DNA of 57,073 nucleotides from Verrucomicrobiota bacterium. GTDB taxonomy: Bacteria; Verrucomicrobiota; Verrucomicrobiia; Verrucomicrobiales; DEV007. Below the pieces are notes generated by a model that saw only the letters and a list, made by a program, of their open reading frames with translations, did not search any database and was not told where the DNA came from. Below, in pieces: positions 10,452 through 16,084 of this stretch. Where the stretch lies: contig PKCI01000218.1 in NCBI GenBank assembly GCA_002862135.1, positions 1-57,073 on the forward strand, given 5' to 3'. Every line of letters starts with the position of its first letter. Within the stretch, counting starts at the first letter, position 1. The position numbers and the translations under genes are program-made.

Positions 10452-12224
10452 ATGTCCTTCACATTTAGGAATCTGTTTTCTGAGGAAGGCGAATACTCTG
10501 CTCCCGAAACTCCGCAAGAAGCTGAAGCCACCAGCCCGGATGATATCTTTTCCTCACCGTCCACAGGGGGCGTTCTTAAAGACTCGCCTTCCGAGGGTCA
10601 TAGAGAAACGGCCTTCGAGCGAACTCAGAGTTTCCTGGTTAGTGAGCTTCTGCCTTTCATTCCGCCCGCCATTTCTGCAAAGAGTGGCATCCCGATGGAG
10701 GACGAGCTCATCCTCCGCATGCCGGCAGACGGGAGTACTGACGTGAAGTTGTCGGTGATTTATCAGGTTTGCCCCCAGTTGTTCGCGGCGGAGATCACTC
10801 CGCTGAATGATTCGACAGTCACCTTGCCTGCCAAGCTGGAATTGTCGGCCGGTGGCGAAGAGAAATCGGCCGTAAGGCTGAGCGGGGTTGCTTTTGGAGC
10901 CAATCCGTTCAGCGTGGATGAAGAAACTGCAGCTGCCGATACGACCGAGGCAAAAACCCCTGAAGCCGGAGCAGATGGCAAAGTTGAGGAGGACAATCCC
11001 TCCTGGTCCCCTGAGTCTTTGGGTGCAGAAGCAGCTTTGGAGGGGAAAAAATTCGATGAACCCGCGTCGGATTTTTCTGGATTTGAAGCGCTGGCTGTGA
11101 CGAAGCCTGAGCCTCTGGTTGAGGAAGTGCGTCAAGGTTTTGACAACCTGAAGGGATTCACAGCTCCCGCTGTGGATCTGGCAGAAGAGGAGCCAAAAGC
11201 TGGAGTGATTGAAGATCATGCGCCAGCAGACGGTTTAGAGGAACCGGCAGCCTCAGCAAGTGAAGAAGAGTCGGAAGCATTCGGCGGTAATGGTTTTGAT
11301 AATTCAGGTGGTGGTTTTTCCACGCTCTTCTGCGAACAGGCTGAGGGAGATTCCGAGATACCGTTCCCGGGATCCTGCAAAGAGACGGTCCCTGCTGAGG
11401 GGCACGGAACTTGGGGCACCATGTTCGAAGCCGGATTCAGCGGAGTCAACGGCGGAGAAGATATCGCACCTGTTCCCGACGGCTTTGGAGATAGGTTGAC
11501 CCGTGATATCAAGGGCGAAGCGGAGCCCGGACAAAACGCTCCTGCGTCGTCGCTGGAATCGGTTGAGGCCGAGATGGTTGCGCCCCCCGCTGCTGAAGTA
11601 TTCATAGAAGAGCCGATGCCGGAGAAGAATAAGCCGGATACCTTTGGGCTCGATGCTGCTCCGGCGTTTTCAGAGTCAAAGAGCTATGATCAAGGAATGC
11701 CAGAAGGGTTCGATGCCCCGGTTAATGCTGCTCCTGAAGAAGATGCAGCGCCCGATTCGGAACCCGCAACTTTGCCGCCGGCGGTTTCAACTGCCGCAAC
11801 ATTCGACTTTGCTGTCGGTCTCGTAGATGAAGCTGAGGAAATGCCGGATCTTGAGATGAGGGCGATTTTCTCATCGAGCGATTCATTCACTCTGTCCCGG
11901 GTTGCGCGGAAGATTGTTGAACTGCCCGACATGATGGGATGCGCACTCGCCACCCCGGTTCGCCTCGTGCAGGCTTCCCGAAGCGAAGAGAGTCGGTTGG
12001 GTGATGAGTCACAGGAGACGATCCAGTCGGTCAAGAACCTTGCCAAGTTGACGGGACTACCGGACACCAAATCATTTACACTGCAGAGTGATCGAGGTAT
12101 TGTTAGCCTGTTCATGGAGGGCTCCTGCTGCCTGATTGTTCGTCATAATGCCCCTGAGTTCGGGCCGGGAATCCGCGAAAAGCTGATCCTGATTGCCCGC
12201 ACGATGCACAAGCTTAACGACTGA
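10452..12224 (+). CDS. Long acidic protein with roadblock/LC7-like C-terminus
   Basis: A 590-residue, strongly acidic protein without signal peptide or membrane segment. Residues about 55-125 form a short folded block (LPFIPPAIS, DELILRMPADGS, VKLSVIYQVCPQLFAAEITPL). Residues 130-460 are low-complexity, rich in Ala, Glu, Pro and Gly, with scattered aromatic islands. The last 125 residues (466-590) look like a single roadblock/LC7-type domain: FTLSRVARKIVELPDMMGCA, VKNLAKLTGL, GIVSLFMEGSCCLIV, IREKLILIARTMHKL. This assignment is by pattern only. It lies 13 bp upstream of a decayed MglA-type GTPase gene and near a second roadblock protein. That context supports a role as a GTPase partner. A TTG at 10416 would give an unlikely 12-residue extension. 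Confidence 0.7.
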   Translation: MSFTFRNLFSEEGEYSAPETPQEAEATSPDDIFSSPSTGGVLKDSPSEGHRETAFERTQSFLVSELLPFIPPAISAKSGIPMEDELILRMPADGSTDVKLSVIYQVCPQLFAAEITPLNDSTVTLPAKLELSAGGEEKSAVRLSGVAFGANPFSVDEETAAADTTEAKTPEAGADGKVEEDNPSWSPESLGAEAALEGKKFDEPASDFSGFEALAVTKPEPLVEEVRQGFDNLKGFTAPAVDLAEEEPKAGVIEDHAPADGLEEPAASASEEESEAFGGNGFDNSGGGFSTLFCEQAEGDSEIPFPGSCKETVPAEGHGTWGTMFEAGFSGVNGGEDIAPVPDGFGDRLTRDIKGEAEPGQNAPASSLESVEAEMVAPPAAEVFIEEPMPEKNKPDTFGLDAAPAFSESKSYDQGMPEGFDAPVNAAPEEDAAPDSEPATLPPAVSTAATFDFAVGLVDEAEEMPDLEMRAIFSSSDSFTLSRVARKIVELPDMMGCALATPVRLVQASRSEESRLGDESQETIQSVKNLAKLTGLPDTKSFTLQSDRGIVSLFMEGSCCLIVRHNAPEFGPGIREKLILIARTMHKLND

Positions 12225-12237
12225 CCAAACCATAGCT

Positions 12238-12913
12238 ATGGTTAACCACAGTTCACGGGAGATTCAGTTTGAGATCGTTTACCGCGGTCCTCCCGAGAGT
12301 GGAAAACCACCAACCTAAAATACATCTACCGCCGCCTTAATCCCTGATAGCGCGGTAACATGGTTTCTTTGGCCACTAAGCATAATCTAACCATTACCTT
12401 TGATCTCCTGCCGGTTTACACGACTGAAATCGCTGGTTATAAGGTAAATCTTCAGATCTGCACCGTTCCTGGCCAGGTGGTTATGCGGGAAGCGCGCAAG
12501 TGTTGATGGCGGTTGGGGACGGGATCATATCTGTAGCTGATTCGAGGCAGGAACGGTTTGAAGCGACGCAGAGGTGCTACAGCAATTGCTGCAGCGCCCT
12601 CTCAAAGCTTCGATTTGATCCTCGCCGAATCCCTTTCGCCTTTCAGTTCAATCAGCGGGATGCCAAGGGAGCGGTAACCCCGGATTTACTTGACGATGCG
12701 TCGGAGGTTAAGGTTCCTTCTTGCCTCGCCTGTGCGATTGCCGTTTACCAGGTCTTTGCGACACTAGATTGGATGACCCAGCAGGTTCTGGCGAAATCCC
12801 ATTTGCGAGCTCTGAACGCCGAATGTCTTACCATGGCATCGATAACCGCGGCCAACCGGTCCATCCAGAGCTCTTACACAAGGTGGTTTACGGGCTTGAA
12901 AGGGAGCCTCTAG
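12238..12913 (+). pseudogene. Decayed MglA-type small GTPase gene
   Basis: Joining three frames reconstructs an MglA-like GTPase. Frame one (12238-12306) reads MVNHSSREIQFEIVYRGPP then ESGK, a Walker A start. A one-base loss in the A run at 12303-12306 shifts to TTNLKYIYRRLNP. Two stops (12345-12350) are bracketed by a compensating insertion and deletion. The frame then resumes with MVSLATKH, FDLLPVYTTEIAGYKVNLQ and TVPGQV to 12500. A second one-base loss gives LLMAVGDGIISVADSRQE, then PFAFQFNQRD (the N/TKxD base motif) and KVPSCLACAIAVYQVFATL, ending at 12911-12913. The motif order and spacing match MglA, including the TVPGQV box that replaces DxxG. At least two net frameshifts and four in-frame stops make it non-functional, unless the read sequence is wrong here. 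Confidence 0.85.
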
Positions 12914-12933: not shown

Positions 12934-14136
12934 ATGGATATTAGTGAAAGCTCAGATTCGGCAAACGCCGACTTTACGCCCGCTGCGCCCATAGAGATTA
13001 GCCTGGAGGTGGCGGAGCAGGCGGACGAATTATTGCGCGAGCTCGCGGAAGATGCCGGCCTCGATACGGCCCTCATCGTCGATCAGAATGGAGCCCTCGT
13101 TACTGGAATCTCCGCCGAAGAGAATGTCACTGTCGATTTGATCTCTGCCCTTGTTGCGGGAGCGAGCGGGGCGATGAAAACCCTGGTTCGTGAAATGGGT
13201 GAGACAGGCGAAATTGAAAGTCTTCATCAGGGAAGTGAACGCTCGGTTTATCTTCGTGAGATCGTCGGTCGATTTTTTCTGGTTGGAGTCGCTGAAGCAT
13301 CCCTGCCCGTTGGTTTGACCAGAGAGAAGTCTAACCAGATGCGGGGGCGATTTGCTGAACTGCTGAATTTAGTAAAACCAACTGATTTTACAGAAAAGGA
13401 AGAGCTGTCTGAATCTGCGGTTATGCCGCGAACGCTTCGGGAAGTAGCGATTGCGCGCGCGGCCGAAAGAGCTGCCAGAGATCCTGAGGTAGACGAGGAC
13501 GATCCGCTCGTCGGCATCGACGATGATCCGGTCGTCGATGATGAGAACGTTTTTTTCGACCTCGGAAAGCTGACCGCAGTGGCTGAAGGCAGCGAATCTT
13601 CCGGAGACGAAAGTTCTGCTGCGGAAGAAGAGTCAATTTTCGAGTTGGAAGAGGAGGAAGCCGAGATCGAGGAAGAGGAAGAAGAACAGCGTGATCCAAC
13701 CGAAGTAATCGAGCCGCTCGAACTTGATGAACCGGAGATTGTCATTGAACCCGAAGAGGGGCCTCCAGCCGAATCTCCATTCGAGATCGATGAAGAGGAA
13801 GAGGAGGAGGAATTGGTAGTTCCGGAAACGATCGTTCTCGAAGAGGGGGCGCCTGTGGAATCCATCTTTGAACTGGAGGCTGACGAAGTTGAGGAGGAGG
13901 AAGACGATGCAGTTGAAGCGGTTGACGAAGGGTCAGCCGTTGAAATTGACGACCAAGAGGACTTTTCCGGTATTTTTGAGGTCGATTCTGATTCCGACGA
14001 AGAAGAAAGCGACCTCGTTTCCGAGCTGGGTGACGACGACAGCACTAATGCAGATGGGGAGTCTGCTGAGACTTCGGAGGGAAGCGAAGCAGAGGAGGAA
14101 AAAGAAGTCGGAGGCTCCGGACCGTTTTACTTCTGA
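12934..14136 (+). CDS. Roadblock/LC7-domain protein with long acidic tail
   Basis: A 400-residue protein. Residues 15-145 are a roadblock/LC7 (MglB-like) domain: EQADELLRELAEDAGLDTAL, IVDQNGALVTG, LISALVAGASGAMKTL, RSVYLREIVGRFFLVGV. Such domains dimerise and act as GAPs or regulators of MglA-type GTPases. The following ~230 residues are overwhelmingly Glu/Asp and carry four copies of a short motif, (E/S)(S/G)(I/P)FE(L/I/V)(E/D), at 13630, 13771, 13858 and 13966. These could be docking peptides. The ATG at 12934 lies 20 bp after the GTPase pseudogene. A longer upstream reading frame only covers the pseudogene's 3' end in another frame. It is probably co-transcribed with its upstream neighbours. 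Confidence 0.85.
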   Translation: MDISESSDSANADFTPAAPIEISLEVAEQADELLRELAEDAGLDTALIVDQNGALVTGISAEENVTVDLISALVAGASGAMKTLVREMGETGEIESLHQGSERSVYLREIVGRFFLVGVAEASLPVGLTREKSNQMRGRFAELLNLVKPTDFTEKEELSESAVMPRTLREVAIARAAERAARDPEVDEDDPLVGIDDDPVVDDENVFFDLGKLTAVAEGSESSGDESSAAEEESIFELEEEEAEIEEEEEEQRDPTEVIEPLELDEPEIVIEPEEGPPAESPFEIDEEEEEEELVVPETIVLEEGAPVESIFELEADEVEEEEDDAVEAVDEGSAVEIDDQEDFSGIFEVDSDSDEEESDLVSELGDDDSTNADGESAETSEGSEAEEEKEVGGSGPFYF

Positions 14137-14246: not shown

Positions 14247-14930
14247 ATGGATTTGATCACCAAAGGCGGGCCTTTAATGTGGCTCCTACTCGGCTGTTCC
14301 ATTATCGCGATTGCGATCTTTCTCGAACGCCTCTTCTACTTTCACCGTGCGAGGATTGACGTCGGAGATTTGCTCTTCGGGTTAAGAAATCTGATCAAGA
14401 ACAAAGCCTATTCTGAGGCACTCTCAGAGACAGTAGTCACTCCCGGACCCGCGGCTCGCGTGATTCAGTCAGCGTTGCGTCGTTATTCCGCGCCCCGGAC
14501 AGAGCTTAAAGAAATCGTTCAAGAAAGCGGCCAGCTCGAAGTACCCAAGCTCGAAAAACATTTATCCGTACTCTTAACTGTGGCCTACATCGCTCCACTG
14601 ATTGGCCTGCTCGGCTCGGTTCTCGGTTTGGTTGACACCTTCGTGCGAATCAACGCCGTTGGTGGTTTTACAACGGTATCCGAGATTTCTCAGGGCGTTT
14701 ATGAGGCTCTCATTACATCAGCTGCCGGACTAATGGTGGCGATTCCTGCGCTCATTTTCTATTCTCATTTGCGCACCTACGCGAAAAGCCTGATGCACGA
14801 TATGGAGAGTGCGGGCATTGAAATCGTGAATACGATTTGCGATCTCCGTTCAGAACCTTCAGACATTATTTCGATGCGTCCGGATAATGAAGAGGCCAGT
14901 GGTGAGGGGGACGATTCGGTTCAGTCCTGA
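14247..14930 (+). CDS. exbB: MotA/TolQ/ExbB family proton channel protein
   Basis: A 227-residue inner-membrane protein with the three-helix ExbB/TolQ layout: helix 1 at residues 8-28, then a cytoplasmic loop of about 90 residues, then helices 2 and 3. Conserved features include APLIGLLGSVLGLVDTF and the channel segment YEALITSAAGLMVAIPAL. With ExbD it forms a proton-motive-force-driven stator. It is followed 29 bp later by exbD. The symbol is given at family level; TolQ- or AglR-type function cannot be separated by sequence reading alone. The location after roadblock/MglA genes is unusual for a TonB-system stator. Confidence 0.9.
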   Translation: MDLITKGGPLMWLLLGCSIIAIAIFLERLFYFHRARIDVGDLLFGLRNLIKNKAYSEALSETVVTPGPAARVIQSALRRYSAPRTELKEIVQESGQLEVPKLEKHLSVLLTVAYIAPLIGLLGSVLGLVDTFVRINAVGGFTTVSEISQGVYEALITSAAGLMVAIPALIFYSHLRTYAKSLMHDMESAGIEIVNTICDLRSEPSDIISMRPDNEEASGEGDDSVQS

Positions 14931-14959: not shown

Positions 14960-15364
14960 GTGAAACTTGAGTCAACATTGAAGGATCGTGGCGGAATGCT
15001 TTACACGGCACCCCTGATGGATGTGATCATGCTCCTGATCATCTTCTTTCTGTTCGGCTCTAGCTTTGTCTTGAAGTCCGGAATCGGAGTGACTCTGCCG
15101 AAGTCGGGTTCGGTTCTTCCACCTGCCGAAGATGCTCATATCGTGACCTTGATCCCAGGGCGTTCGGGCGACTTCTACTTCAACGACCAGAGAACAACTC
15201 TGGAAAAGTTACCCGGGGTTCTTGAGGAAGCGATCAAGCGTTCGGATGATGTCATTCTTTTGAGCGACGAAACAATCGACTATGGGGTCGTGATGGAGAT
15301 ATCCAGTATCATCCTGGGATACGGTTTTAATCTTTCGCAGGCGACTCAGCAATACACTCCGTGA
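14960..15364 (+). CDS. exbD: ExbD/TolR family biopolymer transport protein
   Basis: A 134-residue protein with a short cytoplasmic N-terminus, one transmembrane helix carrying the essential Asp (residue 21 in APLMDVIMLLIIFFLF) and a periplasmic domain ending FNLSQATQQYTP. This is the partner of ExbB in a proton-driven stator. It starts with GTG at 14960. Genes are spaced 29 bp from exbB and 15 bp from the next gene, so one operon is likely. Confidence 0.9.
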   Translation: MKLESTLKDRGGMLYTAPLMDVIMLLIIFFLFGSSFVLKSGIGVTLPKSGSVLPPAEDAHIVTLIPGRSGDFYFNDQRTTLEKLPGVLEEAIKRSDDVILLSDETIDYGVVMEISSIILGYGFNLSQATQQYTP

Positions 15365-15379
15365 TTCATTTTGCGAAAG

Positions 15380-16084
15380 ATGAGGGGTATGCAACATAAG
15401 AAATCAGCGGACGAGTTTTTTATCTTTTCGTGGTCCAAGGACCGCCTTGGTTGGCTCTACCTGACCGCGTTCACCATGTTTTCGTTCATGATCCATGGTG
15501 CAGGGTTTTATCTCTTCCAGGTAGTGTATCCAGCTCCGACTCGTGTGGATCCGACCATGCAATCCATCTCTATTCTGGACGAGTCGAATCCGGAAGTTCG
15601 CTCACTGTTCCAGCGCCTCACAGACCGAACCGTCTATCTTAAGGCGCCTTCGGAGCAGAGCGATGTCAGGGTCCGCTTACAGGATTACGAGGTCCGGTTC
15701 CTGCCCTCATTCCAAAGCATAAAAGTTGAGCCGATTCCACCGGATTATCCTTGGTCACTGTCGCTTAGAGAAGCGAAGGTGATAGCCTTGCCCGAAACGA
15801 ACAAAAAGGGGGAGACACTCGCGAGTTTTGATGACAGCCTGGGCGAAAGCCGTGTGGCTCCCTGGTCTATTTTTGAAGATTACCTGGAGAGAGCTGAAGC
15901 TGTCCCTGCCTTTCGTGCCAGGCTCCGGGTTTTGCCTAATGGAGATGTCAGAGTGATTAAGATTGAAGCCGAACTCGAACAGGAAAACCGCAGGAAGCTA
16001 ATCGAAGTGATCGAATCGACCCTAAGATTTCTACCCTCTGAAATTGCCTCGGAGGGTTGGATGGATGTCTGGGCCAGGGGTTGA
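15380..16084 (+). CDS. TonB-like membrane-anchored periplasmic protein
   Basis: A 234-residue protein with an N-terminal transmembrane anchor (about residues 25-47, LYLTAFTMFSFMIHGAGFYL) and the rest predicted periplasmic. The last ~75 residues (VPAFRARLRVLPNGDVRVIK, LIEVIESTLRFLPSE) resemble the strand-helix pattern of TonB C-terminal domains. There is no proline-rich spanner of normal TonB. Its position right after exbB-exbD is what suggests an energy-transducer role (inference). The start is uncertain among TTG 15371, ATG 15380 and ATG 15389. Confidence 0.6.
   Translation: MRGMQHKKSADEFFIFSWSKDRLGWLYLTAFTMFSFMIHGAGFYLFQVVYPAPTRVDPTMQSISILDESNPEVRSLFQRLTDRTVYLKAPSEQSDVRVRLQDYEVRFLPSFQSIKVEPIPPDYPWSLSLREAKVIALPETNKKGETLASFDDSLGESRVAPWSIFEDYLERAEAVPAFRARLRVLPNGDVRVIKIEAELEQENRRKLIEVIESTLRFLPSEIASEGWMDVWARG

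Follow-up and report, generated by a model that had tools for sequence, protein, structure and literature searches.

A disabled MglA-type GTPase gene between two retained roadblock-type partners, and its repeated loss within one genus of Verrucomicrobiales

The locus and its genes

The window, by which we mean the whole 57,073-nucleotide stretch analysed here, carries the remains of an MglA-type small GTPase gene between two open genes, termed below the upstream and downstream partners (Table 1). It belongs to a genome (G000) of 3.48 Mb in 239 contigs that is 91.8% complete. The named relatives that share the locus are recorded under Verrucomicrobiales or Akkermansiaceae, almost all with titles that mark them as MAGs.

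Table 1. Features of the GTPase locus in the window
Feature	Position	Strand	Remarks
Upstream partner: long low-complexity N-terminal part and C-terminal domain of predicted roadblock fold	10452..12224	+	domain 11820-12221
MglA-type small GTPase pseudogene	12232..12882	+	start codon lost, 3 frame breaks, 2 nonsense codons
5′ fragment, P-loop region, first frame	12235..12309	+	profile A1 positions 2-26, E 1.9e-5
Middle fragment (switch I, FDLLP, TVPGQ), second frame	12300..12500	+	profile A1 positions 24-90, E 1.1e-22
3′ fragment (VADS, NQRD, VFATL), third frame	12494..12844	+	profile A1 positions 89-205, E 2.3e-35
Downstream partner, MglB-like roadblock protein with long acidic tail	12934..14136	+	domain about 12934-13395
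MotA/TolQ/ExbB-type proton channel protein	14247..14930	+	PF01618 E 1.5e-28; TolQ model E 5e-26, below cut-off
ExbD/TolR-type protein	14960..15364	+	PF02472 E 3.4e-14
Conserved neighbour matching no family	15371..16084	+	kept beside ExbD in relatives

Translation revealed pieces of one MglA-like protein spread over three frames, the 3′ fragment being covered by a program-listed ORF (12500-12913). None of the three pieces matched a family in a Pfam hmmscan, and an NCBIfam scan of them returned only a chance-level calcium/proton exchanger match (E 0.11), so the MglA identity rests on intact relatives. The profile search proposed in the first-pass annotation of this DNA settled the family: a profile built from the 26 intact congener copies (A1) matched MglA structures (5ymx and others) along its length (E 1.3e-60), and in the window genome it retrieved exactly three fragments, all within the pseudogene, with no second MglA-like match elsewhere in the 91.8%-complete assembly. 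The 3′ piece also matched open genes in 12 of the 17 congeners searched, at 38-45% identity. The P-loop, PGQ and NKxD motifs are intact in 24 of the 26 intact relatives, G035 and G038 being without PGQ, and the pseudogene has an MglB-like gene directly downstream.

That gene, the downstream partner, is recognised as Robl_LC7 (E 3e-7, 30.5 bits against a Pfam cut-off of 23) and matches MglB structures (E 6e-15); the NCBIfam Thermus MglB model also matches it, below the model cut-off. Judged by the starts of its relatives, the listed ORF from 12721 begins too early. The upstream partner, whose start we placed, by inference, from comparison with the MSFTF start of G015, has no Pfam family; its profile (A2) retrieved no roadblock chain at E values of 1 or below, nor did a profile comparison link it to the downstream partner family. 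Its predicted succession of helix, two strands, helix, three strands and helix is that of a roadblock, which makes it a roadblock protein by predicted fold though unrecognisable as one by sequence. The first-pass annotation had called both flanking genes intact roadblock proteins, a description that holds at the sequence level for the downstream one and at the level of predicted fold for the upstream one. In both proteins the stretches outside the domain (window 10452-11819 and 13396-14133) are of low complexity and rich in acidic residues. In the upstream alignment, column 52, picked post hoc, has alanine in 28 of its 31 rows; the only changes are in G011, G030 and UBA6138.

Genes of ExbB and ExbD type follow the MglB-like gene in 18 of the 24 congener loci that extend at least 2.5 kb beyond it and in none of three more distant loci; the window, G011 and G030 share this arrangement.

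A pseudogene with an intact sister copy

The closest relative compared, G033 (MAG DT_116), has an intact GTPase gene of 217 aa at the same locus (L054:2984-3637). Against this copy, the window gene has a non-start codon at the site matching the G033 start (12232) and three frame breaks, near 12303, near 12500 and, in the variable tail, near 12803; one break sits in a short homopolymer run. The middle fragment holds one TGA and one TAG, both products of in-frame nonsense substitutions, which lie side by side at 12345 and 12348. A frame break interrupts the P-loop, and the NKRD motif has become NQRD; the window copy thus has neither a single ORF with a start codon nor an intact set of P-loop, PGQ and NKxD motifs. 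The first-pass annotation had recognised a broken MglA-type gene here and its motif series across three frames, as the three profile-matched fragments and the intact sister bear out. The span it gave (12238-12913) located the gene and missed the lost start codon; its count of at least two net single-base losses was right about a broken frame and is corrected to three breaks, and what it took for a compensated indel pair near 12342-12352 is the pair of nonsense substitutions.

Decay has also reached the residues of the protein. Of the 78 columns on which at least 22 of the 25 other intact copies agree, the window copy departs at 22 and has a gap at one more, against five departures in G033. Most intact copies (24 of 26) depart at 0-10 conserved columns, the exceptions being G038 (19/83) and G035 (36/85); since these two genes are open all the same, departures alone are no proof of a dead gene. 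Between the window copy and G033 the GTPase omega is 0.53 over codons 1-190 and 0.59 over all 217. Over 38.4 kb, 31 neighbouring collinear genes of the two genomes have no internal stops and a median omega of 0.10, with the maximum (0.43) in the upstream partner. This comparison excluded five stop-containing ORFs that were antisense or intergenic; four real genes that these had displaced, checked afterwards, were likewise unbroken, giving 35 of 35 collinear genes unbroken against G033.

It is very improbable, in our judgement, that 12232-12882 holds a working GTPase gene hit by clustered sequencing or assembly errors, the other possibility raised in the first-pass annotation. The division of the assembly into 239 contigs and the frame break within a homopolymer run would suit such errors, but errors would neither stay within one gene nor favour conserved sites, and here the comparison found all 35 other collinear genes unbroken, while the GTPase gene combines replacement substitutions at conserved sites (NKRD to NQRD among them) with start-codon loss and two nonsense codons; relatives, moreover, carry separate deletion remnants of the same gene. 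The stretch is a real MglA-type GTPase pseudogene, disabled in this genome. The loss postdates the split from G033, yet it is not very fresh, given its load of replacement substitutions.

Separate losses across the genus

Both partners were found in 30 of the 33 genomes of the genus, window genome included; the three without them are 52-75% complete. Among the 30, a full-length GTPase is present in 26, fragments in the window genome, and no match in three (G011, G030 and G015), where the MglA profile found nothing in the genome as a whole; a repeat on the genomes behind L075 (UBA1506) and L076 (NP75) likewise gave no match. The matched partner domains are free of stops in all 30 genomes with the locus, and the partner genes are open in the window genome, G033, UBA1506 and UBA6138, in line with the open flanking genes already described in the first-pass annotation. 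The comparison with close relatives that it had also proposed proved informative, with an intact gene in G033 and remnants in UBA1506 and UBA6138.

In G011 (UBA1506), 172 nt separate the partner matches. A 5′ GTPase remnant (42 of 58 bases identical) is joined to the gene end and the spacer behind it, a 3′ side of 51 identical bases in 70 that covers roughly the final 20 nt of the gene plus that spacer; for each, none of 1000 shuffles scored as high. UBA6138 has a spacer of 161 nt with a 5′ GTPase remnant only (51 of 74 bases identical; 0 of 1000 shuffles as high), the rest of the spacer having no match to the GTPase gene (583 and 855 of 1000 shuffles as high). A tree of 31 rows built from the two partner domains groups the window genome with G033 (support 95), G011 with G030 (100), and UBA6138 with two GTPase keepers, G032 and G041 (97). 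The genomes that lost the gene thus fall in different clades, and at least three independent losses have occurred at this locus: in the window species, in G011 (with or without G030) and in UBA6138. Loss in G030 (NP75) is likely; an assembly gap falls exactly in its locus. In G015 (L058:1181-3804; 77% complete, long branch) the partners are directly adjacent, leaving neither a GTPase between them nor space for a remnant; this may be an ancestral absence or an old loss, and we did not count it among the losses.

Alignment A1 points to another candidate route to losing the switch. G035 (L063:2141-2764) and G038 (L062:2354-3001) have open MglA-like genes in which the P-loop is kept and the PGQ glutamine is gone, and G035 is also without the switch I arginine and most of switch I. 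The account of Myxococcus xanthus MglA in PMC6785124 names arginine 53 and position 82 as active-site residues. Both copies are candidate pseudo-GTPases, judged by these motifs.

Genome sizes of the window genome, G011 and G030 are about 3.5 Mb, compared with 5.0 Mb for the GTPase keeper G033, and GTPase loss may go with genome reduction.

The partners without their switch

The partner domains of the window genome and G033 are 91% and 86% identical. They are under purifying selection in both pairs measured (omega 0.20-0.27), with values of 0.27 and 0.21 for the window genome and G033 and of 0.235 and 0.195 for G011 and G030, pairs of which neither is purely post-loss, since G033 keeps its GTPase and the G030 loss is unproven. 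Over whole genes, omega is 0.41 and 0.28 for the first pair and 0.31 for the downstream gene in the second. Whole-gene values of the two partners rank first and third among 31 genes of the region.

Selection on the domains is perhaps mildly relaxed. Their omega in the loss pairs lies above the regional median of 0.10, and values in six GTPase-keeping pairs are lower (0.014-0.147), at dS that is larger or saturated, for which reason we preferred pN ratios of the partners relative to four neighbouring genes. These are 2.1 (window genome and G033) and 2.13 (G011 and G030) in the loss pairs, compared with 0.66, 1.12, 1.49, 1.52 and 1.84 in five keeper pairs, a subset of the possible pairs chosen for having all six genes and using G006 twice; the cross pair of G033 and G011 gives 1.31. 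In the upstream domain, four genomes counted as losers (G030 included) depart at 9/54, 7/54, 5/53 and 5/54 conserved columns, whereas 22 keepers have a median of 2 departures, the highest being 11/59 and 8/57 (one-sided Mann-Whitney p 0.005, with rows that are not independent and uncorrected for kinship). The corresponding excess in the downstream domain is marginal (p 0.05). These counts left out the divergent G005, G009, G015, G035 and G038, and the alignment A3 used 29 of 30 rows, a partial downstream domain in G001 being omitted. Faster partner evolution in the window genome was considered as a sign of relaxation and discarded as not specific, because neighbouring genes share the excess of changes unique to that genome. 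The upstream partner looks partly relaxed or retuned, and the MglB-like partner largely unaffected.

In relatives, the gene order is upstream roadblock-fold protein, intact MglA-family GTPase, MglB-like protein. Ancestrally, both roadblock proteins would have controlled the nucleotide state of the GTPase, the MglB-like protein as a putative GAP/GEF and the upstream protein as a second regulator or a scaffold, with an output in polarity or surface motility, perhaps through type IV pili or through the ExbBD-type channel encoded next to them. Where switching was no longer selected, the GTPase would go first, and the roadblock proteins would retain a role that does not depend on it, such as that of a dimer or scaffold for what is left of the machinery. 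We consider this joint account, of a pseudogene, a roadblock-regulated switch that was lost first and partners that keep such a role, highly probable. It agrees with the earlier proposal of a lost GTPase with orphaned partners, which is supported by the conserved-site changes, nonsense codons and start loss, and by the remnants in relatives. Persistence of the partners may be transient, which would count against the account in full.

Such transience would be expected if the partners were merely slower to decay, the whole module being non-functional and the partners next to be lost. The slightly higher pN ratios of the loss pairs, partner-domain omegas exceeding those of keeper pairs and the greater number of conserved-site departures in the losers' upstream partner all lean that way, but domain omegas in G011-G030 and the window-G033 pair remain far below 1, no matched partner domain carries a stop in any of the 30 genomes, the downstream excess is marginal, and the extra changes of the window genome occur in neighbouring genes too; we regard slow decay as somewhat unlikely. 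Retargeting of the partners to another small GTPase in trans, which the first-pass annotation had entertained, is improbable. Roadblock proteins do serve other Ras-like GTPases, as described for Ragulator and the Rag GTPases (PMC5680233), but the MglA-family profile gave no second match in the window genome and none in G011, G030 or G015. A more specific form of the preferred account, in which the upstream and MglB-like proteins form a stable roadblock complex with a GTPase-free function, is possible and is put forward tentatively: the switch would be an add-on discarded several times, by point decay, deletion or loss of catalytic residues, while its regulators stayed.

A close known counterpart is the MglA/MglB polarity switch of M. 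xanthus and Thermus thermophilus, which resembles the congener loci in pairing an MglA-like GTPase with an MglB-like roadblock protein. The present module differs in its extra upstream roadblock-fold protein, in the long low-complexity parts of both partners and, in the window species, in its dead GTPase. In M. xanthus, the AglRQS gliding motor, which is of TolQR type, works with MglA according to PMC3169522, and in this it resembles the ExbBD-type channel found here, whose putative link to the GTPase comes from gene adjacency. From that parallel a surface-motility or polarity role for the module can reasonably be inferred.

Orphan MglB proteins have been described before. In the 2014 survey of Wuichet and Sogaard-Andersen (PMC4316618), 328 of 749 MglB were orphans, none then characterised as that survey has it; its account attributes some orphans of actinobacterial conservons to mglA loss and places Group 5 MglA in Verrucomicrobia. 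Events of this kind are thus already on record; the conservon MglB of that account likewise stays in its old neighbourhood after its coupled GTPase is lost. Unlike those orphans, the present case lies in another phylum, shows decay in progress, recurs in one genus and has an intact sister. The Snodgrassella orphan mglB-3, linked in PMC11112851 to type IV pilus motility, is also a roadblock MglB uncoupled from mglA, but its genome retains an mglA and two coupled mglB, and duplication or transfer is the origin suggested there. No report of MglA pseudogenes in Verrucomicrobiales was found among the matches listed from the open-licence literature. What is new is to see the GTPase loss under way, and repeated, in a single genus with both roadblock partners still in place. 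Among its species, the same partners stand beside GTPases that are intact, dying, deleted or lacking a motif, a matched set that makes roadblock function without the switch directly testable.

Co-loss of type IV pili with the GTPase was considered and set aside in its simple form, since PilT-family genes persist in the window genome, G011 and G030. A third PilT-like ATPase with a T2SSE domain adjoins a secretin gene in G033 (C263; L109:5281-6348 and L109:6499-8964). Among the matches listed, its score class (about 259-276 bits) occurs in at least 20 of the 33 genomes and is absent from the window genome, G011 and G030, and also from six GTPase keepers; the pair hints weakly at a pilus or secretion module lost along with the GTPase.

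At the 3′ contig end of L068 in G005, the reading of the downstream partner ends in LSLIHISEPTRP, which we take to be translated Illumina adapter; untrimmed adapter at this contig end of the G005 assembly is likely.
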